Of a DNA stretch of 64,000 bases, positions 19,966 through 41,221 are shown piece by piece. Positions within the stretch are counted from its first letter, which is position 1. Each line of letters opens with the position of its first letter. Position numbers and translations under genes: made by a program. The stretch lies in assembly GCA_004321715.1 (NCBI GenBank), contig SGYN01000007.1, positions 1-64,000 on the forward strand, in the 5' to 3' direction. The DNA is from a bacterium. GTDB lineage: Bacteria; Fidelibacterota; Marinisomatia; Marinisomatales; TCS55. The notes beneath the pieces were generated by a model. It was not told where the DNA came from and did no database searches. It was given only the letters and a program-made list of their open reading frames with translations.

Positions 19966-22900
19966 TAACGATCCGGGAAAAGCTCTATCCCCGCATTATT
20001 TTTTTGTAAGAATTCTCTAGTACCTGCAATAAATCGCACTTCATGTTTCTGCGATGGATTGGTAACTGCATATTTATATACGTGTCTCCAACGTAAATCT
20101 TGAGCTGTTCCAAGCGTAATATCGATTGCAAACACATCTAAATCTTCTGGGATCAAATCTAAATCTTCAAATGTAAGATATACATTATGTTCATCATCTT
20201 GTGCTATTACTTCTAAGTCCCAGTATTCTCCTTCTTCTTTCGGCATACGAATGTCACGTGTATAGGTATCACCATGTTCTGGCCAGTCTCTATTATTTAC
20301 TCGAACAGATATTCCACCTGGGACTAATGGCGGCTCAAACGCATCCTGATTATCATAGGTATCCATTGCGCCCTGCAATAAGCCAACTTCATTAAATTGA
20401 TCTCTACCTAATCCATTACGAGCAGATATATTGACTAACCATTCATTATCTTCCAAAATAATTTCTGAATCAGCCACGCTTCTTCCTAATAATCCTCCGC
20501 CTCCATTACCTGGATTAATAAAGATACTAGATGCACTGGAAGATTTGTAGATATATCCCCCCCATGGTTCAAGTGAGGAAGCATTTGTCCAACTACCACC
20601 ATCATAGGTGTAAAAATTTGGATCGCCAGATAACGATGTTGAATCTTGTGTTAATACGCTACTTAATGGAACAGAAAAATCAAATGGATTTCCAATAAAT
20701 GTCCAATCACCGCTGGTTAAGTTAATTTGATACGGTTGATTGGTTTCAATCGTATATGTTTGACCTGTGTTAATACTAAACCCAGGATCTTTTATCAAAA
20801 TAAAATAGCTTTCTCCGCTATTTAATGTAGATAACTGCTCAAACTCTGTCCATGCCCCAGAGCCTGCGTATGCAAAGGCTCTCCATTTGGTATTATCAAA
20901 TGCAGCATCAGGCATATCATCTACAATAAGATTCACAGGAGAAGAACTTGTTGGGTTTCCTGGGAAAGACCACAATTGATAACTGCTTGCATCTGAACCA
21001 TTAGGAACTCCAGTTGGCCAACGATCTGTGCTTGCAAGACCATTTGGTATTGTAACAGAAATGGATGTAAAACCATCCACAGGTTTTTTGGTTATATTCC
21101 CGGCAACATCTTCCGAATATAAGTAATACTCAATTCCAGATGAGGTAGAATATGCACTTGCAATTTGATACGAGCTTAATGTTGACATATCTACAGGTGG
21201 CTGCCAGTTTGATTCTCCTCCACGACGATAATATAATTCTGCTTTATCAATACCTGACTGACCAGATCCATCTTCCGTAAATACTGCATTAATTACAACA
21301 GCCGTATTTTCTGTAGCTTCTTGAACAGGATTATGTGTAATTCCAGGAGGAGTATGATCTACACTAATTGTTTGTGGATTCGATGTCTCCATAGCGTTCC
21401 CAGCGCTATCATATGCAGTTACGGTCCAACTGTGCGATCCTTGTGCAAGACCAAACGCAGGAGAAAATCCTGTTGAGTCTGGTGAAATTTCCGCTGTTTC
21501 ACTTCCACCATTTAATGAGAACATATAATGACTGATCCCGGAAGTCGCATCACCTGAAGATTCCCATTCAAAACGATATTCTGTTTGATTGTACCATCCA
21601 GCGAGTGGCTTTATTAAGTCAAATGTTTGGGGAGAGGTATCATCCCATTTTGCAGTGACCATCATTGCAGTGGACTCATCATCATTATCGGCATTATCCT
21701 GGAGCCATAATTTTATGGTGCGAGAATCATTTGCCGGCATGGAAAAACTCAATGTTTGAATGCCTGAACCAGCAACATACTCTGAAGACTCTCCATCAAT
21801 TTCATAATGAGCGCCCGCTACACCAGAATGCTCGGATGGATTTGTCCAGGTTAATGAAAACGTATTATTTGATGTCCAGGAGGAAGGACTAATGCTTAAA
21901 GAAGAGACCGAAGCTGGAGCAGTAACATCATCAATTCTATATGATCCAGTGGTATCACTTATTCCTTCTACCGTAGCAATAATTTTAAATGAAAAGTCCC
22001 ATGTGGCACTGCTTGCAACTTCCAGAGCAATAGCTGCTTGACCGCTTGTAGTTGCATTATCTTGACTTACAATAGTTACATTGTTAGATGAAGGACTTAC
22101 TTCCCACGAAACAGGCGTGTTATTGCGGACAAGATTTCCAAATTGATCCTGCGCATCCAAAGTAAAGCCAAACTGGTCGTTTAATTCTAAATCTTGCGCA
22201 ACCTGAGGAACGTTACTTAATGAAGCCGTTACACCTGGCCATACAAGAACAACTGCCGATGTGTCATCTAAATCATATGCCGCAACCCGATTAATATTGC
22301 GCTCCACACTAGATGAAGAAACAATCTGCGCCGGAACAAATTGACCGGGTCTGCTGTCTACTTCAATTTCATTACTTCTAATAAATGAGGATGATTTACC
22401 AGAAATATCCTGTTTAATAGAATTAGATAAAGAACGAATCGTAGATATATTTGAACGGTTATTAGTTGCCGTTATAGTGGAAGAAACATTGGAAGTATTA
22501 TTTGCTAGAGACTCAAAACTACCAAAGGCATTTAATAATGAACTTTCTGTTACCCAACAACGAACCTGATACTCTGTCCCAGATATTGTATTTGTATTTA
22601 ATCGTGTACTTGCAACACCCTGCGCATTGGTATTGCTCGTTCCAGCGCTTAAGCTTTCACCCGTTCCAGAACCAGTTACTACTTCCCATACAACTTCTAC
22701 ATTTTCTAATGGATTATCAAACGTATCCACTAATGCAGTATAAAAATCAATGAAAGCAGTATCAGCAGAAACGCCCAGTTCTTCCGATGTTAGGCCTTCA
22801 TCTAAAGTAAGATTATATATATCCGATGGGATAATTATCACCACGGAGCTTACATGAGAACCAGAACCAGCATTGGCCGTAACCGTAACCTGGTCTCCAA

Positions 22901-25900
22901 CACTCAGTGTGTTATCTGTTGGGTCCGTATATAGGATAACCGTAGCATTTCCAACCGCATCTGTTGCCGTGGTATCAGAACTTAAGCGATATCCATCACC
23001 AGATCCACTTACCGAATTAATACTCCACACTACATGTTCACCAAGGCGGACTGAATTAGAAAATTGATCATATACATTGGCAGAAAATGTTAGGCTGTCT
23101 AACTGCGTCATTGTAGCAGACGGAACGGCAACCGCTACAGAATCGGGTGTACCTGGCTCTACTAGATAAAACCCAGAGGTTGAGGACGCATCATCAGCAG
23201 ATACAGTAAATGAGTTGTAACTACCAGAGACCGTACTAGTGATATACTGGTTGCTTATGATTCCATTTAGATTGGTTGAATCAGTTGAAACAACGGAAAA
23301 CGATCCGGTATTATTTACCGATGCCCATGTTACCGATCCTTTTGTTTTATAACGACCATATGTATTAAATAACTGTATGTTTGACGTGAGGCCAATGGTG
23401 GTACTCGTATCGGGACTTGCTAGAACGGTATCTCCAACCGCCGGTTGAAGAACCGTAATGGATGTTACAGGATAACTGCTTTGATTATGGTAGTATGCAC
23501 CTGCATCTCCATACGTATAATCAGGATCCACTTTATTGGTATCTACATCAATGCCTGCTGCTGCTGCAAGCAATGTAAAATCATCATTGGCGTAATCGGT
23601 AAACTGATCCGTACTGCTGGTAAAGGATCCAACACTATTTACCGTACCATCTACCTGTCCCTCTAAAATAGAATAATTAAGATCCACTGTACCGGAAGCA
23701 ACAGACAGCGAAGTTGCATTATCGTTCCCTGCAATGGTTATATGGTTCAATATGGCATCCCCATCTACGGTAAGAGGAACAGAGGCTGCCTCTACTCCAG
23801 AAATTTGAATATAACTATAGACATTATGGTTAGTTCTACCTCTATCGCCAGTAACTGTTAACCCTCCCCATGTAGAATCAGGATGTGTAGGTAAGAAGGA
23901 TATAGCTCCTCCATCTTCATTCCCCTCTGCATCAAGAGCTCCAGAAACCATTAGGCTAACTCCAGGACTAAAAAACAATTCTGCACCTGCATCTAATTCT
24001 AATGTATCATTTTCTGATACCGTAAAGTCATCGGTGATGATTACAACCGTGTCCGCAGACACAGTAATGTCACCTTGGGAATCTCCAGACAAAAGAACTC
24101 GCTGACGAGGGAATGCGCCCATGTCCACCACGGTATTATCTGCATCATATGTAGAGCTTGTATCCCCTGCATCAATACATGGACTTAAAATATTTAGTGC
24201 AAAATCTTTTTCAGAAGCATTCAAAAATAATGGATCTACATTTACATTGCCTGTTCCTGTATACCCACCCTGTATATTGGAATAGGTAATAGTTGGGTCA
24301 CCAGCAACGGCGTTTGTATTTCCCCAGATTATTGTATTTACAACAGATACTGATCCGGTTGAGCTATCAACAAGAGCATATTCATTTCCATATAATGTTA
24401 CATTGGAAATAGTAGCATCTGCCGCACCGCTAAGCGCAATCGCTTCCCCGCTTACACTGTCAATGAGAACATACGAAATATCAATAGATCCAGCAGATAC
24501 AACAACCCCATCACCAGCATCAGCATGAATAGAAAGCATATGAAGTGAACTGCTTCCACCGCTGAATTGTATTTCTTCACCAATCCATACATCCGCAGGG
24601 TTCAGATTGCTTCCTCTTAGGTGAGCCGATTTTCCCCAATTACTAAATCCATGATCGTAATACCCTGGATGTATAATTACAGAATCTCCTTCTAATACAT
24701 GATCCATTACCCAGTCAATAGATTCAAAAGAACCAGTAGACGCAGAAAAATTACTATAAATTACTTCATCTGTTCCCGTGGTGTCTACGTGCCAAGTAAC
24801 AGAGGTATATGCGCTTGGCGCATGTAAGCTATTTTCATAAGCACCCATATCTGGATTCGCAGTATCCGGCCTTGCAACGCCAGCAATATCTGCTGCTACT
24901 ACGTTGATTGAACGGGCAACACCAATCATTGGTGACCAGTCTAATAACGTTACATTTCCATTCTCCGCATCCGTAAATCCTGGGCGACCATTCATATTTC
25001 CTTCGCCATCAAAACCACCCATTACATTCGAAAATGCAACCGATGCTTCTTCATCCATATCATGGTTTCCCCAATAAATACTATTCAACATTTCTACTGC
25101 GCCAGAAGAGACAATAGAAATCCCGGTTGTATCATCGGAAGTATTATTAATAAATGTACAGTGATCCAATGTGATTGTACCGCCATCTACATACATTGCG
25201 CCACCATCGGCACTTTGGTTGCCATCAAATACACAATTGGTAAAACTTGATTGGGAATCATTAAGATATATGGCACCACCATTACCAGCGCCGCTATTAT
25301 CCCGAAAGATCATATTTTCAAATACAGGGTCAGCACCCGTTATGGATATTGCACCCCCATTGGAACCATTACCATTGATAATGGTTAATCCTGAAATATG
25401 CACCGAATCACTTTCCCCATTATTAAATACAAATGCAGTACCCAGATTTTGACAATCAATAATCGTAGTTGCCGCTCCAGATGTAGAACGAACAATACGT
25501 GTCAATCCTTGCATATTTAAATTGCGGTTATTGACTCCATTGTAAGTACCTGCTGCAAGCTCTAGAGTGTCTCGATTGGAAGATTTATTTAATGCACTTG
25601 CAATTGTTTTCAGTGCGGTTGCGCTTGTCAATCCATCATTATTATTATTCCCATTGGTATCATTTATATAATAAACCAAACGCTTTGGTTCACTAAGAAC
25701 ATGTTCATACGCTCCTATATCAGGGCTGGAACCAGCTGGGTTTGGCCTTGGGTTTCCATATAAGTCAATTACAGGGTGTAATATATCGTTTTCATCAACA
25801 TCTTCTATGCTTGCACCACCCTTGCCTATGGCAGAACTGTAGGCGGAAAGTGTACCCAAGCTATCTTCAAATAATGGATCAAAATCATAACAATATTCAT

Positions 25901-28900
25901 CTTCATCAAAGAACGACTCACTGGAACCTCCTTCAAAAATAGAATTGGTGATCGCAACATATTGTCCACTATTTTGTTGAATATATGTCTGGACCGCGGA
26001 TGGTACGATTCCGCCTCCACCAGTGTTCCTATTTATGTTCCCAGCAATAATGGAATTAAAAATGACAATCTGCTCACCATCAGATCCACCAATTTCCAAA
26101 GCAGTGCCTGAACCTGAAGCTTGATTAACTATCCCCTGATTTCCTGTAATAGTGGAGTTAATGATCGCTAATTCTGCATTCCAAGCATATAATCCAGAAC
26201 CATAATTGCCACTGCCGTTATTCCAGCTTGCTGTATAATTACCGGCAATAAGAGAATTAATTACATATATGGCGCTATTATCTGCATACACTCCTGCTCC
26301 TCTATGGAACTCACCTCCATTACCAGTGTTGTCAGTATAATTATCCAAGACTTTTGTTCTGTCTAGGATAAGTTTCCCCTGTTGCTGCACCTTGATTCCT
26401 GCGCCATCTAATTGACCAGATCCGTTATTATGATTACGGTTATTCTTGATAATACAGTTACGGAAAATAGCCCCAGCTCCATTTTCTACTACAATAGCTG
26501 GGCTCTGGCTATCTGAATCCTTAATCACACAATTTTCAAATACTGCCCCTGAAGGATTATAATTATCGTTACCATTTGTTTGGCCTACATACACACCAGC
26601 AACAGAAACCGCTGCTCCACCAACATCCCCACCACCATTTTGAATAGTGAAACCAATAATTTTTAATGTAGTATCATTTTGTGTGTCAATCGTAAACAAC
26701 TGTTTATTATCTTCTCCATCCAGGATAGTGGAATCAGGACCACCACGAGCAAATAAAATAATATTTTTAGGGGTAATGGATCCAGTATTTTGGTTTTCTA
26801 CAGCAAATTGTAATTCCTGATCCGCATTACGATCATACGTCCCAGGAAGAACCATTACTGTATCTCCTTCATCTGCCGCATCAATCGCATCTTGAATTTC
26901 TCGGAATGCGTCTGCAATGCTTCCTTCACCAGATCCAGATCCGTTTGCTGCATCTACATACCACACAGGACCCAAATATGTTGGTGTTGCAACAATCTGC
27001 ATAGATGGGGAGCTTTCATAACCAGCAGTATCCACACTGGTGACATAAAACCAATAACGCTCATTATTTGTTAAACCTGTTACGGTTCCTTCCGTACTGT
27101 ATAAACCTGTAGTAGAATCTACCAAAGTAAAATTGGTAGAATCAGCACTCGAATAAATTCGATACTGCACCACATCTCTTGCATCAGTTGCTGACCACAA
27201 CAATAGAACGGATTGATTATCTTCCGTTGCAAACAAATCTGATGGAGAATCTGGATATGGGGAAACAGCTAAACTGTTTTCCCATGCACCAACATCAGGG
27301 TTGGAACCTGCAGGGTTTGGTCTAACGTTCCCTGCAAAATCTATTTGAGGTGCGTTAATAATGTTCCCAAGTGCATCTTCTCCCTCCGCAACACCAGCTC
27401 CAATTGCGGAGCTACGAGGATGCAGAGCAAAAGTACTATCAAGAAATTCCGGTACAAGATTAAGAATATCATCACCACTCAGGTCATCATCCCCGCCGAT
27501 AATAGAATAAGAAGCGTACACTTCCGAACCGTCATTCTGATTGTCATAAATAGCAAACTGCCCATTATTTGTTGTGGTTTCAGTTTGAGAACCAGCTCTT
27601 GTTACAATGGTATTGCTGTGAATAATACTGTTAAAAATTGTAAGGTGTGGTGAATTTCCATCACTATTTACATCAGTCATACCTATCACACTGCCAGTAT
27701 GTTCATAAATAAGCCCATCATTAATTGTGGTCGTCTGGTTATTAACAACAGTGCTATTAATTAATTTTAAATGGCCACTGCCGCTATTGTAAGATATAAC
27801 CCCACCAGACGGATAAAAGTTTGAAATAGAAGCATATGATAAAGAATTGTTCGCAACAATTGTATTTACTAGCGTTACATCAGCTGATCCATAAGAATCT
27901 ACAGCTAAAACTGCACCAGATATATTACCCCCCACCTGGCCTGTCTTTTTTAGAGTGATATTGGTTAGTTTCGATCGATTAAAAAGTAGCGTACCTCCTT
28001 TAAGTAAAACAGCACCTCCATAACTAGTATTACCGCTACTGGGATTATCAACGGTTATATTTGTAAACTCACAATTATCAAAAACAGTATTTGAAATGTC
28101 GATGTAAACAGCTGCCTGCTCCCAATCTGATGCTGCTTCAAGATCTCCAGAATCAAACATCGTAAACACACAATTTTTAAACGTGACCCCAGAAGTGTAA
28201 TATGTACTTTGACTATTGTTATTCCAGAGTTGGTAGCCTTGTATTTTCACAACTGAGCCAGATCCATCATCTTCACCACCATTGCTTGCTGTGATAGTAA
28301 AACCAATAATTTGAAGTGTCGTATCTGTTTGATCTTCAATATTAAATACCCGTTTATTTTCTCCATCAAGAAATGTAGTTGCTGCACCATCACGAGACAT
28401 TAACACAATGTTTTTACCCGAAGTAGTCCCATCGGAATTCGAAGTAACAAATTCTAACTGCTGGTCATCCGGACGATCATACGTACCAGGCAAGACCAAT
28501 ACTGTATCTCCTGCGCTAGCAACATCAATGGCGTCCTGTACTTCGCGAAATGGATCATCGGGGCTTCCTTCATGGGCACCTGCGCCAGACCCATCATCCA
28601 CATACCATACTGGACCATTATAAAATGGTGTTAATTTTATCTGTTCAGATGCAGTACTTTGATAATTTGAAGTGTCAATAGAAGTAACATAAAAAGTATA
28701 TCTTGTATTGTTCGTTAGCCCTGTAATTGATGCGGAAGTATTGGTTAAACCTGTGATTGTATCCACTACTGAAAATGATGACCATCCGCTGCTGCTTGAA
28801 TCCGCCTGATATACATAATACTTGGAAACATCATCTGCTGATGGGGCGGACCAAGAAACAGTTGCCGATATATGTCCGGCAGTACCAGCAATATTAGCTG

Positions 28901-31900
28901 GAGCATCTGGATACGGAGTAACAGCCAAGCTGTTTTCTTGAGCTCCCATATCTGGGCGAGATCCTGCAGGGCTTGGTCTAGCATTCCCAGAATAATCAAG
29001 TGCAGGAGCAACAATATCATTGTCCTCTGCATCTATAGTTGTACTAGCACCCGCACCAATAGCTAAACTAGAGCTGCTTAAAGTAAAGTTCGTATCTGCA
29101 AAGACAGGATTAACATCTAAATTTCCATCCCCGTAATCATCTCCATCTATCCCAGCAAGAATTGAATATGAAAAACTATATTCATAATAACTGTTGCTAG
29201 AGCCGAAATTACTCGACAAATAAATTTCATGCTCTGCGCCACTATTGCCATATATAATAGAATTGAAAATGGTAAGATGGCAATTATTGCTACTACTAGC
29301 ATTAGAAACATGAATTGCGCTTCCATTACTATAAGTATTAGTTGACCCATCTATTTCATTGCCAGTTATGGTTGAGTTAATTATAGAATAAGACCCTCCA
29401 TATTCTAGCGTAAGCGCTCCACCCTGGGCATTGGAAGTATGCTCCACTGTATTATTAGCAATAATTGAGTTAACTATTGTAAGCTTATCGCCATCTGTAT
29501 AAATAACACCTCTAGCGGTCCCATTCGTAGCCTTCACTGTATTTCTAACTATCTTACAACCTTCTATATATAAAGTGTTATCACTGTACTGAGCCTCATC
29601 CATCATGATTATTCCATCGGATGAGCCATATCCAATACTAGAATTATCCCGGATAACACAATTAATAAGTCGCAGATGTGCTTGATCCATATAAATAATA
29701 CTCATCGCACCGTAATTATTATTTACAGTACGATCATGATCGGTATCAGCAAATACACAATTTTTAAAGGTTACACCATTAACCTGTGGATTGCTGCCTT
29801 CAGAACCTTGAATATGAACAACGCCACCCATGCCATTATTATAATTTATATCTCCTCCTGAGCTGGCTGTGATGGTAAACCCAATGATCTGCAAAGATGT
29901 ATCATTAACAAACTGATTATTGGAATAACGAAGAGTAAAAACGTGGGAACTTCTACCATCCAAAATGGTAGTTGCAGCTCCATCTCTGGACATCAATACA
30001 ATATTTTTATGCGATGTAACTTGTCCATCTGTATTCACTGCTTGAAAATTTAATTCTCTATTGCCGTTCCCATCATATGTTCCAGGTAATACCATTACTG
30101 TATCACCTGCGGATGCCGCATCAATCCCATCTTCTATATTGCGGAATGGTAGTGCGGGGCTTCCATCTCCACCTGAATTTGCACTGTCATTTACATACCA
30201 TACGGGACCTTTATATTCTGGCGCACCAGACACCTCATTAGAATACCCGGATACATATCCATCTGCATCCATAACTACAACCCGAAAATAATATGTGGTA
30301 CCGTTGGTTAAACCGCCGATACTTTTTGATGTAAAACTTGCGCCAGCACTATCCACTAATGTAGCAGCATTTGCTGAAGTACCTTTGTATATACGATACC
30401 GAACTAAATCCGTTTCCGAACCCGCAGTCCAGCTTAAAGTGACCGTATTATTGTTCACACTGCTTACGGTTAATCCAGAAGGACTGTCTGGATAAGGAGT
30501 GGTAGACAATGAATTTTCAAATGCTCCCAGATCTGGACTGGATCCAGTAGGAACCGGCCGCCCTGTATTTAGATAGTCATATACAGGTGTAGTGATATTT
30601 TCAAACACGCTTGTCCCTGCGCCAATGGCAGGGCTTGCTGCAGATAGGGTATATACGGTTGCTCCTGCAGAAAAATTTGGATCGGATGATAAAATATTAT
30701 CTTCATCAATTCCAGCATCACTTGCATACTGAATCAAAGAATAATCAACCTCAGAATTGCTTGTACCCCACCCGGAGCCGGCAGTAGACATATTTACTGT
30801 TGACGGAGTAACGTTTCCTGTGGAGGTAGTGTTTCCATACATAATGGAATTAAATATTACCGCATCATAGTTAGAAGCATATCGGTAAATACCTGCGCCA
30901 TAATAATTATTAGCCGGAGTGCTAGTGCTAACAGGGTTTACTTGATTATCTGCGATGGTAGAGTTAATAACCTGTATTTCAGGATCTTTTGATGTATAGT
31001 TGGGATTATCACCAAAACTTGCCAAAAGGTCGTAATAAATTGCTCCACCGCGCGCACTCCCATGATAGCTTGTGCTTGTACTGCTTGTACTGCGCAAGTA
31101 TTTTGAGTTTGCTTTATTTTGCACCAGAACTGAATTTATAAAGTGTGTCTGACCAAATCTTGTAAATACGCCTCCACCCCAAACATAAGTACCATTGATT
31201 GTATTATAACTAATGGATGAATTCACAAACCGTATAGGAGGGTTATTCTTTGGCCCTCTGTCTATATGAACAGCTCCTCCATAACTGTTAGAATAACCGA
31301 AACTTCCTGTATACAGATTTGGCGCTGTTCCTTGATAATCACCACCTGCTTCAATTTTATTGGAATCAATACGCGTATTTTCAAAATACGGTGATGAGTT
31401 AATTCCAACAGAAATAGCTCCGCCATAGAAACTGGAACCAGTGTTCGTGGATTCAGAATCCAACTCATTGGAGTTTCCTGCTATTACACAATTTTTAAAC
31501 TTGGGCCGGTAAACTACAGAATCTTGTACAATATAGGATCCATTTGAAGAAAAATAGCCTTCATTCCCTTTCATCCTAATTGGAGCATAAAAATTGCTAG
31601 ATCCAGTTCCTCCATCATTGGTTGTTTTTAAACCGCGAAATACACATCCATCAAACGTCGGGCTGGCACGGTAAATAGTGATCACAGTTCGATCTTGTTG
31701 CCAGGATGACAGTGAATGCGCCACCGTGGAATTCATAAAACGACAGTTCTCAAATACCGGATTCCATGGAACACGGTTGGAGCTGCTGCTGGTATAGCTA
31801 GGGCCCTCTATATCTACCAAGGGGTAGTCTTCATCCCCATTTTTAATGGTAAAACCAATAATTTTTGTGCTGCTTGAATATCCGGCTAATCCTGATTCTA

Positions 31901-34900
31901 AACCATCCTGATAATTCATACTGATAGCAGTACGCTCTCCTTCTCCATCAATTATGGTTGTCGCTGGACCTGCTACGGATTCAATAACAACATTTCTTCC
32001 AGTAAACTCTACCACAGGGTGATCCCCATGATCGGGCCCAGTATAGGTTCCTGGTTGTACCAAAATCTGAATACCATCAGAAGTAATGCTTTCCAATGCG
32101 GCTTGAATCGTATAATAAGCATTAGTTTCTTCTCCATTTGGATTCGAAGGCGCAGTGGATGGGCTATTATCTACATATATAGTGGTACCTGAAAATATAG
32201 GCGTTGCACTGACCTCACCAGAATAACGACTCTCATAGTTGTCGGAATCAATTGCCGTAATGCGGAAAAAATACTCCACACTATTACTCAAATTTGTTAC
32301 GGTTGTGGTGACCGTTGTACGCCCACTTACGTCACCCTGCTTTACCGTTGGGCCACTGGAAGCCCCATAATAAATCCCATACTTGGACACATCTGTGTCA
32401 GTATGCGCTGTCCAGGTAAGGACCACCTGTCCATTACCAGCCGATGCTGCAAGACCCGTAGGTGCTGCAGGAACCGGGCTTGAGCCCAATGTGCTTTCAT
32501 AGGCACCCATGTCAATAGTAGATCCAGAGGGGTTGGGTCGAACCGTTCCAGAAAGATCTGTTGTTGGAGCATTTTTACCATCAAAACTTGCGGCACCTTC
32601 TCCAAGCAAAGTACTGTACAGCGAAAGGGTGTAGTTTCCGGCTGATGCATCCGTGAACTGTGGGTCTACATCCAATGAATTATTCCCAAACCAGCTCTGT
32701 CCAGTTCCTCCTTCTATATCATTATAATCGGAGGTAAGGCTTGAGCCAGGTACAAGGATGTTATCAGAGGATTCCGCTGTGTTATCCCAAACAATAGAGT
32801 TAAACATGATAACATCTTCATTTGCATTAATATTTATACCCCCTCCGTACGAAGTATAGCTACTTGGGGCAAAAATAGAATTTCCTACTATAGTCGAATT
32901 AACAATCAGCACTTCTCCAACTTCACTTCCATAGGAAGCTAAGTCAACGTGTATACCTCCACCATATGCATGGCGAGCAGGAGACGAACCTGTATTGCCT
33001 GCAATCAGACAGCCAGAAAGGACTGCCTCTCTTTGAATCCCTAGCCCTCCTCCATACACATATCCATTATAAGTGGAAGTATTCGAATTACCGATAAATT
33101 GACATCGTCTAAAAGTAACAGGATCCGTATTGCGATGATCGCTTTGCGCCAAATATACGGCCCCACCCATACCATAATATCTTGCGCTAGTGGTATTATA
33201 GTTTATTTGACAATCTGTAAATACAGGTGAACCGGTGTAAACATAAATTGCTCCCCCCGAAGCAGAGTTTGATCCTGATCCTATAGTTTCTGCAGTATTC
33301 GACACAATCTGACAATTGGAAAAAGTTGGGGAAGAACTAGTCCCTGTAATATATATCGCTCCCCCATACACAGTGGCGCTAGCGGAAGCAGTGTTATCCC
33401 GAATAGTACAGTTTTTGAATTTTGGACTTGCACTGTTTATGTATACGGAACCACCGGAAGTATTTTGACCGTTTTTCAAGGTAAGGCCGATTACTTCAAA
33501 CGTAGAGCCTACTCCGCTGTTAAAAGTAAAATGTCTCGATGCAGCTCCTGCGTCTAGAATAGAAGAAGCAGCTCCATTCAATGAATTGATCACTACATTT
33601 TTACTGCTGGAAAACGTGATGTTCCTGTTTCCAGAACCCGTAAACGTACCATCTTTAAATGTAATTGTGTCCCCATTCGCTGCAGCATTATAAGCGGAAG
33701 ATAAAGTTGAAAATGGACTGGAAGAGCTTCCTGCGTTCGTGGAGCTTCCATTGGTTGCAACCCACCATACGGGACCTGCATAGGCAGGAACTACAGAAAC
33801 CTGTGTAGCATACAAACCTTCATTTCCGTCCGTATCTATAGCGGATAATGAAAAATAATATGTGGTGCCATTAGTTAAACCTGTTGCCGTATATGTAACA
33901 GTGGGGTGACTTAGTGTCGCCAGCAGGGTTGTACTGGATGGTGTAAACCCTGATGTAGTGCTTTTATAAATTTTATAGGACGCCATATCCGAATCGGTAT
34001 TAGCCGACCAAGATAAAACGGCTCCGCCATCTCTGGAAGCAACGCTCAGCCCTTGTACTTGCCCAGGATTTGGAGATCCACTTTGAGCGCTTTCATGTGC
34101 CCCTAAGTCTGGACTCGTTCCAGAAGGATTGGGTCTAGCAGAAGATGCAATGTCATTTGTAGGAGCTGCAATACCATCAAATGTGCTCGCGCCTGCACCA
34201 GCCAAATAACTGGAGCTGGATAAGGTGTAATCATTATTGCTTGCATTGGTAAACCCTGGGTCAATAGCCGTTGAGTTTGATGCCAAGGTATAATCATAGT
34301 CCGCGATGTTATTATAGTCAAAGGTTAATGTGATATTGGAGTGTCGATAAATGCTCTCATAGTCATCCGCTGTGTTTCCCCAAACGATGGTATTGAACAT
34401 GGTAAATTCAGAAGATGCTGAAGAATATGCATATATACCACCACCCCAATCATAAGAACTATAGACAGATGAAGCAGTGTTTCCTGCAATGGTACAATTA
34501 ATGATTTTCAAATCACTTGATGTGTTCAAGTAAATTGCCCCACCACGACCATAATAATTCAATGCTTCGCTGTTGGTCGTTGCCGTATTCCCTGTTATGG
34601 AACAGTTGACTAATTCAACTCCTATATTATTTGCATGCAATGCACCTCCAAACCCATTCTGTTTCCCTTTGGCGGTGTTGCCTCGGAAATAACAACGAGT
34701 AAACTTTAATGGGGTGACATCTTCATGATCAGACTCACCATACACAGCTCCTCCCAATCCAGAATAGCGGCCTGATTCCGCTTTATTATCATCAAACACA
34801 CAATCAGTAAATGAAGCAGTAAAGTCAGAGTCGCTATCTCTGCTATTAAAAAAGATAGCTCCGCCATAATTACTCGTCAACTGACTACCGCTACTCAATG

Positions 34901-37391
34901 CATTGTTCTCAGTAAAGGTACAACTTCTAAAAACAAGGTCACCTTCGTACCCTTCTATAGTAATTGCTCCGCCACTGATTTTCGCGCTATTATTATTAAA
35001 GGTACAGTTTTGAAATACTGGGGACGTTGAATAGGTGTCATCATTTGTATCTTTAATCCATAGCGCACCACCATGGCCTAAATACGATCTATTATTTTCA
35101 AACACACAGTTTTTGAATCGAGGGCTGGAGTTATACACATAGATAGAGCCACCGTTGGTGCTATAATTACTATTTTTAAATGTTAGACCAATAAAGACCA
35201 CACCTGTATCTAAAGTTGTCGAATTACCTATAGTAAAATGTCGATAATTATTATTCTGTAGATCCAGAGAAGTTGAGTCTGCTCCACCCTGGGTTCCTGT
35301 ACCGGACATAATTACAATATTTTTTGCTATGGTAATGTTTCTATTTCCTGTACCGGTATAAGTACCATGTTTTAATTTGATGGTGTCTCCTTCGGCTGCA
35401 GCATTATACGCGTCTTGAATCGTTGAAAATGGACTGTTAAAGCTTCCTTCGTTAGAAGAGCTTCCATTGGTTGCTACCCACCATACGGGTCCAGCATAAG
35501 ACGGTGTTGCCGAAACAGTGGTCGCCGCAGCACTTAGAGAATTATCATCCCCTTGGGAGCGCACCGTAAAATAATATAACGTGCTATTATTTAGACCTGT
35601 AATTGTTTTGGATGTTACGCTACCGCTAGTAGTACTAGCTACTTGAGACAAATTACTAGAGCTAGTTCCTTGATAAATAAGTGTCCGCGCTACTCCGCTA
35701 CCTGTAGCAGCTGTCCAGTTCAAGGTTACTTGACCTTCACCAGCAGTAACCGATAAAGCAGTTGGCGGTGCAACAGAAGGAGTTCCACTTGCTGTAGGCA
35801 TAAAAAGACTATAATCTCCACTCGAAGTTTTTGATTTGATTCCATAGTAGTATGTAGTTCCATTGGTTAGCCCATCATCTGCATAGGAAGATATATTCGC
35901 AGCTACTGAATCATGCTCAGATAAATTAGAAGCGCTAGAACCACGGTATAGCACATAATTATTTACACTTGGGGTGCTAGATGCTGTCCAACTTAGTGTA
36001 TTTGTTTGATAAGAAGGTGTTACCGTAAAATCTGTTGGCGGTATAACCCCTGCATTAATATCTAAAATGCGAATTGCCCATTCTTCTTTCGGTAGGCCTG
36101 ACGGGTTTCCATTATATACTATCTGTGTCCCAATTTCTTTTGTTTGATCCTGCCAACCAACCGTAGCAGAAGTAATTGCTGATGCTCCTCCGTTCAATTC
36201 CTTATACTGATAAATAATTTCACCACTAGCTTTTAAGATCACCTGGAATGTCAATGTTGAGGTTGCTGACCTGTAAAGGGGCATTTCATCATATGTGATA
36301 ACCAACTGATTACCGTCGCTATAGTAAGAGGTTAAATTTTGACCTGTTGGCGGTCTTAAATCATCCCAGAATGGAGCTAGCAATGCCTCTGGTGCACTTG
36401 CAGATGGTATGCCAATATTCGTATAAGCGCTAGATGTGCTAGTAAAACTGATGAAACCATTCGTGCTAATACGAAACGTGGTGTAGTTTTCTCCATAGTA
36501 GGGAAAGGTAAACCCAATAGGGTGCGGACCCGTATTCTGGTCATCACCTGACATAGAAATTGTGGTTCCTGTAGACGAGATATCAACCCATTGATAGGTT
36601 GGCCCACCTGTATCATCACTGGTAGCCCATTGATAATTTGGTTCGTTACTAACTACAGGAGTTTCCTCACTCCAAGTAGCGCCTGTAATTGTACCAGAGT
36701 TACTATTGGAGGTCACGTCTGCAATGGTAGATCCTGACCCTTCATTCATGAGCCAATATGCTTTTAAATCATTGGAAGAAGTATAGTCTCCAGCATTCGT
36801 GCTGGCAGATAATGGTGCACCTGAGTTATATAAAGCCGTTACTTCCGCAGCAGTTAAGTCATCATTCCAGACCGCTACTTCATCCATCTGTCCAACAAAC
36901 TCATTGGTAAGATCTTGTGAGTCATACTCTGCCCCAATTGTCCATCGATGTGTACTATACATAGAGTTGGCTGCTGAATGAGTGCCTTGAGAAACTCCAT
37001 TTAGATAAACAGTACCAGTATATCCGCTCCGAGAATAGACAATATGGTTCCATTGCCCATCTGTTGCAGCCGTGCTTCCGGTAATCTCAATAGAACCTTC
37101 AAAAACGATAGGGTATCCTGTGGTTTTCTTTAAACCAACCATAAGAATATTTCCACCTGTGCTAGTATTCACCGCAAAAAGGTACGAATCGTTTTCTGGA
37201 AAAGAGGCCAGAGTTGGTCGAGCCCAGAAAGATACAGCCCAATCGGTAGTTCCCGATACTTGATCCGCAACCGTATTCACGTTCACATAGTCCTGATCTC
37301 CATCAAAATTAAGCGATTGAGATACTAACCGTTGTGGAATCGCCAATGCGAAAACAAGCAATACTATATATACTGTGTATACTTTATTCAT
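19674..37391 (-). CDS. giant secreted multidomain beta-helix/fibronectin-III surface protein
   Basis: The protein has about 5,905 residues in one open frame of 17.7 kb. The ATG at 37391 follows an in-frame TTG at 37397. In order it shows a signal peptide (1-25), a LamG/concanavalin-like domain (about 25-240), a domain with PYYGENYTTFRISTNGF (about 255-440), and two fibronectin-III domains (about 445-630). Eight right-handed beta-helix modules follow, beginning near 631, 1204, 1734, 2393, 2924, 3474, 3904 and 4197; modules 2 to 6 each follow an fn3 domain. Ig-like domains come next (about 4640-5460), then a WPTGVPNGSD..WSFPGNP segment and a C-terminal FlgD/T9SS-type tail with NYPNPFNP near 5815. 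It is probably surface-displayed, with adhesive or glycan-binding roles inferred. I see no protease or glycosidase motif. Confidence 0.9.
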   Translation of the reverse strand: MNKVYTVYIVLLVFALAIPQRLVSQSLNFDGDQDYVNVNTVADQVSGTTDWAVSFWARPTLASFPENDSYLFAVNTSTGGNILMVGLKKTTGYPIVFEGSIEITGSTAATDGQWNHIVYSRSGYTGTVYLNGVSQGTHSAANSMYSTHRWTIGAEYDSQDLTNEFVGQMDEVAVWNDDLTAAEVTALYNSGAPLSASTNAGDYTSSNDLKAYWLMNEGSGSTIADVTSNSNSGTITGATWSEETPVVSNEPNYQWATSDDTGGPTYQWVDISSTGTTISMSGDDQNTGPHPIGFTFPYYGENYTTFRISTNGFISFTSTSSAYTNIGIPSASAPEALLAPFWDDLRPPTGQNLTSYYSDGNQLVITYDEMPLYRSATSTLTFQVILKASGEIIYQYKELNGGASAITSATVGWQDQTKEIGTQIVYNGNPSGLPKEEWAIRILDINAGVIPPTDFTVTPSYQTNTLSWTASSTPSVNNYVLYRGSSASNLSEHDSVAANISSYADDGLTNGTTYYYGIKSKTSSGDYSLFMPTASGTPSVAPPTALSVTAGEGQVTLNWTAATGSGVARTLIYQGTSSSNLSQVASTTSGSVTSKTITGLNNSTLYYFTVRSQGDDNSLSAAATTVSATPSYAGPVWWVATNGSSSNEGSFNSPFSTIQDAYNAAAEGDTIKLKHGTYTGTGNRNITIAKNIVIMSGTGTQGGADSTSLDLQNNNYRHFTIGNSTTLDTGVVFIGLTFKNSNYSTNGGSIYVYNSSPRFKNCVFENNRSYLGHGGALWIKDTNDDTYSTSPVFQNCTFNNNSAKISGGAITIEGYEGDLVFRSCTFTENNALSSGSQLTSNYGGAIFFNSRDSDSDFTASFTDCVFDDNKAESGRYSGLGGAVYGESDHEDVTPLKFTRCYFRGNTAKGKQNGFGGALHANNIGVELVNCSITGNTATTNSEALNYYGRGGAIYLNTSSDLKIINCTIAGNTASSVYSSYDWGGGIYAYSSASSEFTMFNTIVWGNTADDYESIYRHSNITLTFDYNNIADYDYTLASNSTAIDPGFTNASNNDYTLSSSSYLAGAGASTFDGIAAPTNDIASSARPNPSGTSPDLGAHESAQSGSPNPGQVQGLSVASRDGGAVLSWSANTDSDMASYKIYKSTTSGFTPSSTTLLATLSHPTVTYTATGLTNGTTYYFSLSAIDTDGNEGLYATQVSVVPAYAGPVWWVATNGSSTNAGSSSSPFSTLSSAYNAAANGDTITFKDGTFTGSGNRNITFSSSKNVVINSLNGAASSILDAGAASRHFTFNSGVGSTFEVIGLTLKNGQNTSGGSVYINSASPKFKNCTIRDNTASASATVYGGAIYITGTSSSPTFSNCQIVSNTAETIGSGSNSASGGAIYVYTGSPVFTDCQINYNTTSARYYGMGGAVYLAQSDHRNTDPVTFRRCQFIGNSNTSTYNGYVYGGGLGIQREAVLSGCLIAGNTGSSPARHAYGGGIHVDLASYGSEVGEVLIVNSTIVGNSIFAPSSYTSYGGGININANEDVIMFNSIVWDNTAESSDNILVPGSSLTSDYNDIEGGTGQSWFGNNSLDVDPQFTDASAGNYTLSLYSTLLGEGAASFDGKNAPTTDLSGTVRPNPSGSTIDMGAYESTLGSSPVPAAPTGLAASAGNGQVVLTWTAHTDTDVSKYGIYYGASSGPTVKQGDVSGRTTVTTTVTNLSNSVEYFFRITAIDSDNYESRYSGEVSATPIFSGTTIYVDNSPSTAPSNPNGEETNAYYTIQAALESITSDGIQILVQPGTYTGPDHGDHPVVEFTGRNVVIESVAGPATTIIDGEGERTAISMNYQDGLESGLAGYSSSTKIIGFTIKNGDEDYPLVDIEGPSYTSSSSNRVPWNPVFENCRFMNSTVAHSLSSWQQDRTVITIYRASPTFDGCVFRGLKTTNDGGTGSSNFYAPIRMKGNEGYFSSNGSYIVQDSVVYRPKFKNCVIAGNSNELDSESTNTGSSFYGGAISVGINSSPYFENTRIDSNKIEAGGDYQGTAPNLYTGSFGYSNSYGGAVHIDRGPKNNPPIRFVNSSISYNTINGTYVWGGGVFTRFGQTHFINSVLVQNKANSKYLRSTSSTSTSYHGSARGGAIYYDLLASFGDNPNYTSKDPEIQVINSTIADNQVNPVSTSTPANNYYGAGIYRYASNYDAVIFNSIMYGNTTSTGNVTPSTVNMSTAGSGWGTSNSEVDYSLIQYASDAGIDEDNILSSDPNFSAGATVYTLSAASPAIGAGTSVFENITTPVYDYLNTGRPVPTGSSPDLGAFENSLSTTPYPDSPSGLTVSSVNNNTVTLSWTAGSETDLVRYRIYKGTSANAATLVDSAGASFTSKSIGGLTNGTTYYFRVVVMDADGYVSGYSNEVSGAPEYKGPVWYVNDSANSGGDGSPALPFRNIEDGIDAASAGDTVMVLPGTYDGNGNRELNFQAVNTDGQVTSHKNIVLMSRDGAATTILDGRSSHVFTLRYSNNQFVNDTSLQIIGFTITASSGGDINYNNGMGGVVHIQGSEGSNPQVNGVTFKNCVFADTDHDRTVNNNYGAMSIIYMDQAHLRLINCVIRDNSSIGYGSSDGIIMMDEAQYSDNTLYIEGCKIVRNTVKATNGTARGVIYTDGDKLTIVNSIIANNTVEHTSNAQGGALTLEYGGSYSIINSTITGNEIDGSTNTYSNGSAIHVSNASSSNNCHLTIFNSIIYGNSGAEHEIYLSSNFGSSNSYYEYSFSYSILAGIDGDDYGDGNLDVNPVFADTNFTLSSSSLAIGAGASTTIDAEDNDIVAPALDYSGNARPSPAGSRPDMGAQENSLAVTPYPDAPANIAGTAGHISATVSWSAPSADDVSKYYVYQADSSSSGWSSFSVVDTITGLTNTSASITGLTNNTRYTFYVTSIDTSNYQSTASEQIKLTPFYNGPVWYVDDGSGAGAHEGSPDDPFREVQDAIDVASAGDTVLVLPGTYDRPDDQQLEFVTSNSDGTTSGKNIVLMSRDGAATTFLDGENKRVFNIEDQTDTTLQIIGFTITASNGGEDDGSGSVVKIQGYQLWNNNSQSTYYTSGVTFKNCVFTMFDSGDLEAASDWEQAAVYIDISNTVFDNCEFTNITVDNPSSGNTSYGGAVLLKGGTLLFNRSKLTNITLKKTGQVGGNISGAVLAVDSYGSADVTLVNTIVANNSLSYASISNFYPSGGVISYNSGSGHLKLINSTVVNNQTTTINDGLIYEHTGSVIGMTDVNSDGNSPHLTIFNSIIHSNTIVTRAGSQTETTTNNGQFAIYDNQNDGSEVYASYSIIGGDDDLSGDDILNLVPEFLDSTFALHPRSSAIGAGVAEGEDALGNIINAPQIDFAGNVRPNPAGSNPDVGAWENSLAVSPYPDSPSDLFATEDNQSVLLLWSATDARDVVQYRIYSSADSTNFTLVDSTTGLYSTEGTVTGLTNNERYWFYVTSVDTAGYESSPSMQIVATPTYLGPVWYVDAANGSGSGEGSIADAFREIQDAIDAADEGDTVMVLPGTYDRNADQELQFAVENQNTGSITPKNIILFARGGPDSTILDGEDNKQLFTIDTQNDTTLKIIGFTIQNGGGDVGGAAVSVAGVYVGQTNGNDNYNPSGAVFENCVIKDSDSQSPAIVVENGAGAIFRNCIIKNNRNHNNGSGQLDGAGIKVQQQGKLILDRTKVLDNYTDNTGNGGEFHRGAGVYADNSAIYVINSLIAGNYTASWNNGSGNYGSGLYAWNAELAIINSTITGNQGIVNQASGSGTALEIGGSDGEQIVIFNSIIAGNINRNTGGGGIVPSAVQTYIQQNSGQYVAITNSIFEGGSSESFFDEDEYCYDFDPLFEDSLGTLSAYSSAIGKGGASIEDVDENDILHPVIDLYGNPRPNPAGSSPDIGAYEHVLSEPKRLVYYINDTNGNNNNDGLTSATALKTIASALNKSSNRDTLELAAGTYNGVNNRNLNMQGLTRIVRSTSGAATTIIDCQNLGTAFVFNNGESDSVHISGLTIINGNGSNGGAISITGADPVFENMIFRDNSGAGNGGAIYLNDSQSSFTNCVFDGNQSADGGAMYVDGGTITLDHCTFINNTSDDTTGISIVSSGAVEMLNSIYWGNHDMDEEASVAFSNVMGGFDGEGNMNGRPGFTDAENGNVTLLDWSPMIGVARSINVVAADIAGVARPDTANPDMGAYENSLHAPSAYTSVTWHVDTTGTDEVIYSNFSASTGSFESIDWVMDHVLEGDSVIIHPGYYDHGFSNWGKSAHLRGSNLNPADVWIGEEIQFSGGSSSLHMLSIHADAGDGVVVSAGSIDISYVLIDSVSGEAIALSGAADATISNVTLYGNEYALVDSSTGSVSVVNTIIWGNTNAVAGDPTITYSNIQGGYTGTGNVNVDPLFLNASEKDFALNILSPCIDAGDTSSTYDADNTVVDMGAFPRQRVLLSGDSQGDITVSADTVVIITDDFTVSENDTLELDAGAELFFSPGVSLMVSGALDAEGNEDGGAISFLPTHPDSTWGGLTVTGDRGRTNHNVYSYIQISGVEAASVPLTVDGDAILNHITIAGNDNATSLSVASGTVDLNYSILEGQVDGTVNSVGSFTSSTDQFTDYANDDFTLLAAAAGIDVDTNKVDPDYTYGDAGAYYHNQSSYPVTSITVLQPAVGDTVLASPDTSTTIGLTSNIQLFNTYGRYKTKGSVTWASVNNTGSFSVVSTDSTNLNGIISNQYITSTVSGSYNSFTVSADDASSTSGFYLVEPGTPDSVAVAVPSATMTQLDSLTFSANVYDQFSNSVRLGEHVVWSINSVSGSGDGYRLSSDTTATDAVGNATVILYTDPTDNTLSVGDQVTVTANAGSGSHVSSVVIIIPSDIYNLTLDEGLTSEELGVSADTAFIDFYTALVDTFDNPLENVEVVWEVVTGSGTGESLSAGTSNTNAQGVASTRLNTNTISGTEYQVRCWVTESSLLNAFGSFESLANNTSNVSSTITATNNRSNISTIRSLSNSIKQDISGKSSSFIRSNEIEVDSRPGQFVPAQIVSSSSVERNINRVAAYDLDDTSAVVLVWPGVTASLSNVPQVAQDLELNDQFGFTLDAQDQFGNLVRNNTPVSWEVSPSSNNVTIVSQDNATTSGQAAIALEVASSATWDFSFKIIATVEGISDTTGSYRIDDVTAPASVSSLSISPSSWTSNNTFSLTWTNPSEHSGVAGAHYEIDGESSEYVAGSGIQTLSFSMPANDSRTIKLWLQDNADNDDESTAMMVTAKWDDTSPQTFDLIKPLAGWYNQTEYRFEWESSGDATSGISHYMFSLNGGSETAEISPDSTGFSPAFGLAQGSHSWTVTAYDSAGNAMETSNPQTISVDHTPPGITHNPVQEATENTAVVINAVFTEDGSGQSGIDKAELYYRRGGESNWQPPVDMSTLSSYQIASAYSTSSGIEYYLYSEDVAGNITKKPVDGFTSISVTIPNGLASTDRWPTGVPNGSDASSYQLWSFPGNPTSSSPVNLIVDDMPDAAFDNTKWRAFAYAGSGAWTEFEQLSTLNSGESYFILIKDPGFSINTGQTYTIETNQPYQINLTSGDWTFIGNPFDFSVPLSSVLTQDSTSLSGDPNFYTYDGGSWTNASSLEPWGGYIYKSSSASSIFINPGNGGGGLLGRSVADSEIILEDNEWLVNISARNGLGRDQFNEVGLLQGAMDTYDNQDAFEPPLVPGGISVRVNNRDWPEHGDTYTRDIRMPKEEGEYWDLEVIAQDDEHNVYLTFEDLDLIPEDLDVFAIDITLGTAQDLRWRHVYKYAVTNPSQKHEVRFIAGTREFLQKNNAGIELFPDRYALSQNYPNPFNPQTSILLTMQDEATISLVVYNLLGEEVAVLANNEYRPAGYHNFIWKGLNKDNERVASGVYFYMARVISPKGDLLISDTHKMILVK
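24100..35510 (-). repeat. eight tandem beta-helix modules inside the giant gene
   Basis: Each of the first six modules has an entry strand such as GPVWWVATNGSS or GPVWYVDD, a DUF1565-like segment ending in GDT..(V/L)PGTY, many parallel beta-helix coils, and an exit motif RPNPxGSxPDxGAxE. Entries lie near 35490, 33770, 32190, 30210, 28615, 26970, 25675 and 24795. Entries 7 and 8 (VYYINDTNG, VTWHVDTTG) are diverged and lack a preceding fn3 domain. Coils repeatedly carry GGA(I/V/L)Y and an F..C.F cysteine position. Confidence 0.85.
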
Positions 37392-37399
37392 AAACAATT

Positions 37400-38491
37400 T
37401 TATTCTGGTAAGGCTGGCGGTTCCGGAAGAGCCGATGCTGCCTCCGGTTGTAAAAGCACAAACGCTGCTGCCGCTGCTAAGCCAAGTCCACCTAGAAGAG
37501 GCAAGCTAATGCTTATTCCGCCGCCGCCTGAGTCAGCCATATCGCCGCCTGCGTATTTACGTCGTTTTTTAATTAAATCTTTTGGAGCGTCTAATCCAAG
37601 AATCGTCCACGCTAAAATCTCAATTTCTACAATCATACCCTCTACTTTACCTTCATAGGTAACACTCTGCATATTTTCTGCTGCGCCAGTAGCAACGCTA
37701 AACATTTTTATATCAATGGTATAGGCATCTCCAAGCTTACCAATCGCGCCATTTACCATGAACTCTACACCAAGCATCGCTCCAACTTCTGCTGCGCATT
37801 CCTGGCTGCTACACTCTGCTCCAACCATTCCCTGCTCTTCTAATACTTCAGACATAACACCTCGCTCCACCATCTGAACGCGATCTGTTTTGCTCATAGC
37901 AGTAGTGAATCGATCCGTTAACGTTTGTGCTTCCATTAGTGAAATTCCACGTCCTTCAAAATCTAAAATAGCAACGGTTGATTTATTTTGTCCTCCACCA
38001 CGTTTTAATTTTAATCTACCGGGTGGCTGCAATCCCACAATCTCCCAAGCCAAAATCTGCATTTCGGTTAGAAGCCCAGCAATGTCCCCTTCATGTGTGG
38101 CATTCACAGATCTCTCTGTAGCCCCTGTTTCAACAGAAAACATTTTTACGTCAATGGTAAATGAGTCGCCCAGTTTTCCAATCGTACCACTTACCATAAA
38201 CTGCACTCCTAACAATTGACCCACTTCTGCAGCACATTCATCCGAAACACATCCCGATTGCGCAAGGCCCTGTTCTGCCATAATGCTTTCAATTGCTTTT
38301 CGCTCGATTAAACGCACAGCGTTGGTAGTCCCAATTTCTGAACGCATTCGTTCGGTAAGAGTTTGTACCTCTTGCACGCTGATGCCTTGGCCTTCAAAAT
38401 CTAAAATTGCCACTGTAGGTCGGCTATCTTGCGCCAAAACAGTAGCAATCATAAAAAAGGCTAGTGATATATATGTAAGATTATTTTTCAC
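37400..38491 (-). CDS. tandem CsgG/TolB-N-like exported protein
   Basis: The 363-residue protein starts at a GTG preceded by GAGGA with good spacing. A signal peptide (about 1-20, ending near VLAQ) is followed by two copies of one domain: VAILDFEGQGIS at about 27 and VAILDFEGRGIS at about 170. Both copies continue with LTER/LTDR, a V.L(I/M)ER segment, and a (C)x4C..AAEVG.(L/M)LGV.FMV block. This resembles the nucleotide-free CsgG/TolB-N fold of periplasmic and outer-membrane assembly proteins. A glycine-rich hydrophobic stretch (about 325-347) and a proline-rich tail end the protein. It ends 8 nt before the giant gene, which suggests a role in its export or anchoring. Confidence 0.75.
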   Translation of the reverse strand: MKNNLTYISLAFFMIATVLAQDSRPTVAILDFEGQGISVQEVQTLTERMRSEIGTTNAVRLIERKAIESIMAEQGLAQSGCVSDECAAEVGQLLGVQFMVSGTIGKLGDSFTIDVKMFSVETGATERSVNATHEGDIAGLLTEMQILAWEIVGLQPPGRLKLKRGGGQNKSTVAILDFEGRGISLMEAQTLTDRFTTAMSKTDRVQMVERGVMSEVLEEQGMVGAECSSQECAAEVGAMLGVEFMVNGAIGKLGDAYTIDIKMFSVATGAAENMQSVTYEGKVEGMIVEIEILAWTILGLDAPKDLIKKRRKYAGGDMADSGGGGISISLPLLGGLGLAAAAAFVLLQPEAASALPEPPALPE

Positions 38492-38553: not shown

Positions 38554-39225
38554 TTATTCATCTGCCTCAGCTAATAATATTTCTACCATAGATCCAACTT
38601 CGCCTTCGAAGTCTTCCCCTTCATGAAATCCTTTTTTTGCTAATCGAATTGTCTGGAACTTATCGATTACATAAAGCCTGGGTAGCGTTTTGGCTCCATA
38701 TCGTTCTTTTGCCACTCCTCGATTATCGTTTAATATTGGCATTGTAATCCCTTTTTTTGCTAAAAACGGTCCTGCTTTGGGGGAGTCTTCAAATCCAGGG
38801 CTAGTACGAGTTGCCTCTGTGATATCCACCAGGAACCATTTGACGCGCTTTCCATCAAACTTTTCATACAAATTTTGTAAAAGTGGCAATTCTTTCATAC
38901 AAGGCTTACACCATGTTGCAAAAAAACTAACAACTACCACATGCCGGTATGGCTGCGTAGTGCTTTTTCGTAGTCTTTTGCCACGCTCTACTGTCCAATT
39001 TTTTAAAAACTCGAACTTAGCTGGTGCGTACATGAGCGCCCATGATGGAGCAACACTTCCAGCTTTTAATCCGGGGTCCTTTATTCCATCCGCATCTGGC
39101 ACTACCGCCACTTCTGATTCATCTTCTTTTTTCACTTCTTCTTGCGCAATCAGCGGCATAGAAATTGCAAGGGCAAGAAACAATACAAAGTAAATTGGTT
39201 TCATCGTTGAGAATTTATAAGTCAT
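38554..39225 (-). CDS. TlpA/ResA-like exported thioredoxin-fold protein
   Basis: The ATG at 39225 is chosen over the one at 39237 because GGAG lies just upstream of it. The 223-residue product has a signal peptide (about 8-27), an acidic linker, and a thioredoxin fold with FFATWCKPCMKELP (C106, C109) and a cis-proline in KTLPRLYVID. TlpA-like proteins reduce or rearrange disulfides in the periplasm. The operon neighbours are unusually cysteine-patterned: the CsgG-like protein has a CxxxxC pair in each repeat, and the giant protein has cysteine ladders. That makes them plausible substrates. Confidence 0.85.
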   Translation of the reverse strand: MTYKFSTMKPIYFVLFLALAISMPLIAQEEVKKEDESEVAVVPDADGIKDPGLKAGSVAPSWALMYAPAKFEFLKNWTVERGKRLRKSTTQPYRHVVVVSFFATWCKPCMKELPLLQNLYEKFDGKRVKWFLVDITEATRTSPGFEDSPKAGPFLAKKGITMPILNDNRGVAKERYGAKTLPRLYVIDKFQTIRLAKKGFHEGEDFEGEVGSMVEILLAEADE

Positions 39226-39248
39226 TAATTTCTCCATCTGTTTATTAA

Positions 39249-41212: not shown

Positions 41213-41221
41213 TTTATTCAA

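Follow-up and report, generated by a model that had tools for sequence, protein, structure and literature searches.

A giant beta-helix/fn3 protein with a type IX secretion tail and a conserved operon in marine Neomarinimicrobiota, a probable surface strand

The locus described here raises the question of how a single bacterial gene came to hold a long series of beta-helices, each closing with a motif normally seen once near a C-terminus, and what such a product may do for the cell. The window, i.e. the whole 64,000-nucleotide stretch that was analysed (positions 1 to 64,000 of contig SGYN01000007.1, assembly GCA_004321715.1), comes from an uncultured marine bacterium of the Candidatus Neomarinimicrobiota and carries on its reverse strand a gene for a long, acidic product of ~600 kDa with a regular architecture (Table 1). 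The N-terminus of this giant, MNKVYTVYIVLLVFALAIPQRLVSQ, read by eye after the likely ATG at 37391, resembles a Sec signal peptide. Judging from the gene, its relatives and structure prediction, we surmise that the giant is a beads-on-a-string surface strand exported by the type IX secretion system (T9SS), most likely an adhesin or tether and probably coupled to cAMP/cGMP signaling, a reading that we regard as probable rather than secure.

Table 1. Operon genes and parts of the giant in the window, listed 5' to 3' along the reverse strand
Feature	Position	Strand	Basis and remarks
FlgT/CsgG/LipL46-like secreted protein	40103..41221	(-)	NF033164 3e-11, below cut-off; CsgG 0.008; conserved
Conserved secreted protein, faint LPP20 similarity	39249..40085	(-)	PF02169 E 0.16 only
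ResA/TlpA-like thioredoxin	38554..39237	(-)	Conserved
LpoB/CsgG-like two-domain protein, directly upstream of giant	37400..38491	(-)	PF13036 4.8e-14, PF03783 9.5e-14; conserved
Giant gene	19674..37397	(-)	Single stop-free frame, 5907 codons from TTG 37397; likely ATG at 37391
Laminin_G_3 (ConA-like lectin) domain	36840..37304	(-)	Pfam PF13385, 4e-20
Nidogen-like (NIDO) region	36048..36476	(-)	PF06119, 2.8e-7, above cut-off
Two fn3 domains ahead of module 1	35493..36053	(-)	Block HMM, 96 and 106 bits
Module 1, beta-helix, exit RPNPSGTSPDLGAHE	34086..35492	(-)	Motif scan and block HMM
fn3 ahead of module 2	33777..34085	(-)	Block HMM and Pfam fn3
Module 2, beta-helix, exit RPNPSGSTIDMGAYE, co-orthologue of module 1	32490..33776	(-)	Motif, block HMM, NF041518 over cut-off
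fn3 ahead of module 3	32190..32489	(-)	Block HMM
Module 3, beta-helix, exit RPVPTGSSPDLGAFE	30510..32189	(-)	Motif, block HMM, NF041518
fn3 ahead of module 4	30210..30509	(-)	Block HMM
Module 4, beta-helix, exit RPSPAGSRPDMGAQE, absent from G003	28929..30209	(-)	Motif and block HMM
fn3 ahead of module 5, absent from G003	28617..28928	(-)	Block HMM
Module 5, beta-helix, exit RPNPAGSNPDVGAWE, structure predicted	27273..28616	(-)	Motif, block HMM, NF041518, model
fn3 ahead of module 6, predicted seven-strand fn3	26973..27272	(-)	Block HMM and model
Module 6, beta-helix, exit RPNPAGSSPDIGAYE, structure predicted	25698..26972	(-)	Motif, block HMM, model
Module 7, shorter beta-helix without fn3, exit RPDTANPDMGAYE	24828..25697	(-)	Motif, block HMM, NF041518
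Module 8, beta-helix without fn3, reduced exit DMGAFP	24105..24827	(-)	Motif and block HMM
Degenerate ninth helix-like stretch, ends GDAGAYYH	~23478..24104	(-)	Weak BLASTP to M7/M8; beta-rich in M6-M9 model
C-terminal region, bacterial Ig-like stretches	19950..23477	(-)	Weak Pfam matches
T9SS type A sorting-domain tail (QNYPNPFNP...)	19746..19949	(-)	TIGR04183 26.2 bits, cut-off 23
FecR-domain protein, directly downstream of giant	18804..19586	(-)	PF04773 1.3e-16; conserved
CHASE2 + class III adenylate/guanylate cyclase	16503..18794	(-)	PF05226 2.9e-42, PF00211 3.4e-22; conserved

Scanning of the giant for the short pattern D.GA.[EP] yielded eight copies (5' base of the D codon at 34109, 32513, 30533, 28952, 27296, 25721, 24851 and 24125), as compared with a mean of 0.24 and a maximum of 3 in 2000 shuffles of the protein; the full pattern RP.P.G..[PI]D.GA.E was found six times, once in each of modules 1-6, and in none of the shuffles. 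An earlier note on this DNA had proposed eight beta-helices closing with this motif and an fn3 domain ahead of modules 2-6. Eight such helices were indeed found, but only modules 1-6 have the motif in full, with the exit of module 7 (RPDTANPDMGAYE) lacking the PxGS part and that of module 8 shortened further, and a degenerate ninth helix follows; likewise, the fn3 domains ahead of modules 2-6 were recovered with block HMMs, but two more are located ahead of module 1. In the reading given by these HMMs, which were built from the N-cap (N), exit (C) and fn3 (F) regions, the giant comprises FF-NC-(FNC)x5-NC-NC, each helix having one N-cap and one exit block. The repeat at module scale that the note had anticipated was borne out by this pairing as well as by BLASTP between modules (M1/M2, 44% identity, E 9e-100; M4/M5, 42%, E 3e-92; M1/M7, 27%, E 7e-19); the fn3 domains of the giant share 25-49% identity with each other (BLASTP). 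As judged by sequence comparison, the modules are homologous and the unit of repetition is the module. The rungs of the beta-helices carry GGA[ILV] and F/I-x-x-N repeats. Among the 29 cysteine residues of the giant, 28 fall within the beta-helices (24105-35492), mostly at F-x-[NDSR]-C-x-[FI] rung positions, and a thioredoxin-like gene is found in the operon.

An AlphaFold model of module 5, the adjoining fn3 domain and module 6 (M5-fn3-M6; 29 sequences, mean pLDDT 85.8) revealed two separate right-handed beta-helices with the fn3 between them, an N-cap alpha helix opening each beta-helix (residues 26-32 and 574-580) and seven fn3 strands at residues 459-543; the relative orientation of the units is not fixed by this model (pTM 0.59). 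The breaks between modules that had been expected are therefore seen in the predicted structure, and one continuous helix is ruled out by the model for this segment, while the model of modules 6-9, with three N-cap helices and poor confidence (pLDDT 63.6), is too poor to decide this or to read the packing of the fn3-less end. These features would be in line with distinct rods joined by a hinge domain, each helix being predicted to have its own exit cap. Taking each helix to have 10-14 rungs at 0.48 nm and each fn3 to add ~4 nm, we estimate that the stretched array would reach ~60-75 nm, and a span of tens of nanometres appears plausible.

The view of the exit motif as a single C-terminal feature had to be given up. 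In the model, the exit motif of module 5 (residues ~411-446) is folded with a pLDDT of 92-95 and lies directly ahead of the fn3. In both the M5 and M6 copies, the residues D, R, D and E of the motif are invariant in 29/29 sequences, and nearly all giants of the relatives show exactly one exit block after each N-cap. NF041518, the model for choice-of-anchor Q proteins, matched modules 2, 3, 5 and 7 over its cut-off and one module below it (54 and 69 bits for the two halves of the whole protein), but in contrast to the single C-terminal motif of those proteins, the giant repeats the motif inside the chain, with every copy more than 1400 residues ahead of the T9SS tail rather than near the C-terminus. 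As modelled, each helix is closed by the exit motif as a folded C-cap, and the motif is not an anchor or C-terminal signal, with a role as anchor or sorting signal ruled out by the well-folded invariant cap and the 1:1 alternation of N-cap and exit. A C-cap would be expected once per helix, so the contrast with a motif normally seen once is mostly gone; elsewhere, the motif seems C-terminal because most such proteins have a single helix. The same genome also encodes a lone 499-aa lipoprotein (L010:6772-8271) comprising an fn3-like domain, a beta-helix and the exit motif at its very end, which fits the placement in choice-of-anchor Q proteins; its gene adjoins one for a TonB-dependent receptor plug domain.

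As to the origin of the array, the duplication of a whole secreted-protein unit, as put forward in the earlier note, stands in part. The gain or loss of helix+fn3 units as whole pieces is seen between close relatives, and the lone lipoprotein demonstrates that an fn3+helix+exit protein is present in the genome, but nothing in our comparison supports it as the source of the unit. In the nearest complete relative, from the same genus (G003), the giant is two units shorter than that of the window: its module 1 is equidistant from modules 1 and 2 of the window, and its third unit pairs an fn3 resembling the one that leads into window module 4 with a helix resembling window module 5. A single insertion or deletion covering module 4 together with the fn3 that follows it would account for this arrangement. 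What did not hold is a recent run of duplications. Such a burst is ruled out by the pairwise identities of 24-44% between modules, pointing to old events, and by positional orthology across genera, as evidenced by a tree of the N-cap and exit blocks in which modules 3, 5, 6, 7 and 8 cluster with modules of other genomes and not with their own neighbours, the cross-genus grouping of modules 3, 7 and 8 having strong support. The histories of fn3 and helix also differ in part, and a rigid fn3+helix unit that is always co-inherited is ruled out, as the fn3 and helix trees disagree for module 2 and for module 3 of G003. Relatives in the same slot within the order have 1-8 helices, with arrays of 3-8 in same-operon relatives, and in another class of the phylum a frame of 11,705 codons, its first part masked, harbors ten fn3-helix-exit units and sits between two LpoB/CsgG-like genes (G141:C141, L090-L092). 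As a result of whole-unit gain and loss, the length of the giant differs between lineages while the flanking operon stays.

The same differences would also be expected if the locus served to vary in length and sequence, with the array acting mainly as a recombination substrate that alters a surface protein, e.g. a phage receptor or a grazing target, and with adhesion being secondary. Whole units do differ among close relatives, contig breaks inside the giant gene are common, and a 167-base stretch where modules 1 and 2 each begin (within 32490-35492) is 78% identical as DNA vs. 44% protein identity of the two modules, as after gene conversion, which is a possible reading of this stretch. However, most of the modules are old, with positional orthologues across genera, and few DNA-level repeats are left, such that homologous recombination would now seldom switch the locus. 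We consider this alternative unlikely and retain an adhesin or tether as the preferred reading.

The solved folds that match the M5-fn3-M6 model comprise GH28, the pectate lyase Pel9A, Pel3 and PL6, along with many fn3 domains. These best matches being enzymes, the giant could be a multi-module polysaccharide-degrading enzyme, with catalytic helices akin to pectate or alginate lyases and with fn3 and LamG as carbohydrate-binding linkers; rhamnogalacturonan lyase is likewise found among the weak sequence matches, and LamG and fn3 occur in secreted CAZymes. However, the charged residues that are invariant across six modules lie only in the fold caps (D172 and the D/R/D/E of the exit), with no invariant D/E/K/R/H residue in the helix bodies across modules, and no CAZyme family was matched in Pfam or NCBIfam. 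The lack of an invariant charged residue inside the helix bodies renders an enzyme less likely, and we regard this possibility as quite improbable, with the surface strand again preferred.

For export of the giant by T9SS, the evidence came from its tail and from the remainder of the genome. The tail scored over the TIGR04183 cut-off of 23, with 26.2 bits for the last 117 aa and 25.3 bits in the genome search, and its match to Pfam PF18962 was below cut-off; matches to FlgD_ig and CHU_C at the C-terminus were near or below cut-off, and there was no type B model among the hits in Pfam or NCBIfam. In its own genome, an incomplete draft (67%), SprA was found (G000:C3; 764.8 bits with its neighbours, cut-off 200) together with 12 matches to the PorV family, and SprA was over cut-off in 38/41 genomes. 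GldM gave no match in four genomes, in a search without a positive control, as no control genome gave a match either. No model of an autotransporter beta-barrel (Pfam, NCBIfam) matched the giant, the C-terminus of which is the T9SS tail.

The giant lies in an operon on one strand whose order, kept across the taxonomic order, is FlgT/LipL46-like, LPP20-like, thioredoxin, LpoB/CsgG-like, giant, FecR and CHASE2-cyclase. Upstream of FecR, a large gene with a T9SS-like tail was present in 32/32 loci (all loci in genomes of the order that hold FecR and upstream sequence, with the tail recognised by a loose pattern), being adjacent or separated by one LpoB-like gene; given that only ~60-65 genes per genome bear a T9SS tail by TIGR04183, chance adjacency to FecR is negligible. 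The series from the FlgT-like gene through the LPP20-like, thioredoxin and LpoB-like genes to the giant recurs wherever the upstream side is complete, and in other classes of the phylum, too, LpoB-like genes stand ahead of giants (G141, G085, G149). In other genera, the slot holds cargos of ~1100-2150 residues without a helix array (~1400-2150 residues in several of them), indicating that the array is not essential to the operon. A sheath or matrix component, released as an extracellular filament rather than anchored, would suit a long and acidic protein of regular architecture, and T9SS cargos may be released or anchored, but the LpoB/CsgG-like partner and the sensor genes would fit a cell-attached role better, and we regard this alternative as improbable.

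For a cell-attached surface strand, we propose that Sec would carry the giant across the inner membrane, and that the LpoB/CsgG-like partner may handle it, either within the periplasm or at the outer membrane, with exit presumably by way of SprA/PorV. The giant would then be held at its C-terminus, thereby presenting the lectin-like N-terminus at a distance, and FecR and the CHASE2-cyclase, as the last genes of the operon, may report export or the state of the envelope as cAMP/cGMP. Extending this to the operon as a whole, it might serve specifically to export, and to sense, a single giant T9SS cargo that can be exchanged, with the LpoB/CsgG-like protein as a cargo-specific outer-membrane partner and with FecR and the CHASE2-cyclase reporting export of, or tension on, the strand as cAMP/cGMP; we put this forward tentatively, as a possible but doubtful extension. 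If it is true, a phylum of which hardly any members have been cultured would have a surface strand linked to a second messenger, and the constant pairing of LpoB/CsgG-like and FecR/CHASE2-cyclase genes predicts such a link between strand export and a second messenger. To our knowledge, almost no surface biology has been described for the abundant marine Neomarinimicrobiota, and the giant with its fixed operon offers a concrete handle on how these bacteria meet particles or other cells.

The T9SS cargo set of Prevotella intermedia includes proteins with one to three pectin-lyase-fold domains, with fn3 and choice-of-anchor domains being common (PMC11969387). The giant shares with these cargos a C-terminal T9SS tail and beta-helix domains, but differs in having 8-9 helices and a regular fn3-helix-exit unit, in its conserved operon, which includes a sensor-cyclase, and in the phylum of its host. 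Arrays of 8-10 separately capped helices on fn3 hinges would take this kind of T9SS protein, with its 1-3 beta-helices, to dimensions that could let it reach tens of nanometres out from the cell. SprB of Flavobacterium johnsoniae has a type B tail and moves on a gliding track, whereas the tail of the giant matches type A and its body is made of beta-helices and fn3. Both would be giant T9SS surface proteins of similar size, SprB being a secreted adhesin of 669 kDa (PMC7807042) and the export of the giant being predicted. With the Pmp proteins of Chlamydia, the giant has the GGA[ILV] and F/I-x-x-N rung repeats in common, including a sub-threshold Chlam_PMP match in module 7, but in place of an autotransporter barrel it has a T9SS tail and multiple helices with fn3. 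As for the sensor genes, the 'BiofilmReg' operon of Burkholderia, linked to biofilm, likewise places a gene for a FecR-domain protein immediately ahead of one for a CHASE2 sensor (PMC5192318); there, the output runs through a histidine kinase and its response regulator, in contrast to the nucleotide cyclase and giant T9SS protein here. Our search of the literature, in mostly open-access papers, found none combining CHASE2, adenylate cyclase and adhesin, and none combining beta-helix, fn3 and T9SS. The giant combines features of the Prevotella cargos, of SprB and of FecR-CHASE2 pairs at a larger scale.

A second giant of 6557 aa is encoded in the same genome (G000:C8, L008:7779 to L009:7452) beside a second CHASE2-cyclase, and comprises N-terminal FG-GAP-like repeats, many Ig-like repeats, LamG-like domains, one exit-motif beta-helix and a T9SS tail. 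Linkage of this second giant to CHASE2 is ruled out as a general rule, being confined to the genus of the window (G000:C8, and G003:C50 from its start), with the G008 locus having no giant. Close matches to the first giant among named genomes are from Candidatus Neomarinimicrobiota. A contig titled 'uncultured Legionellales' (L078, CAJWRJ010000027.1) also encodes the first part of a giant with 79-90% identity to that of the window; this contig is probably mislabelled or from a mixed bin.
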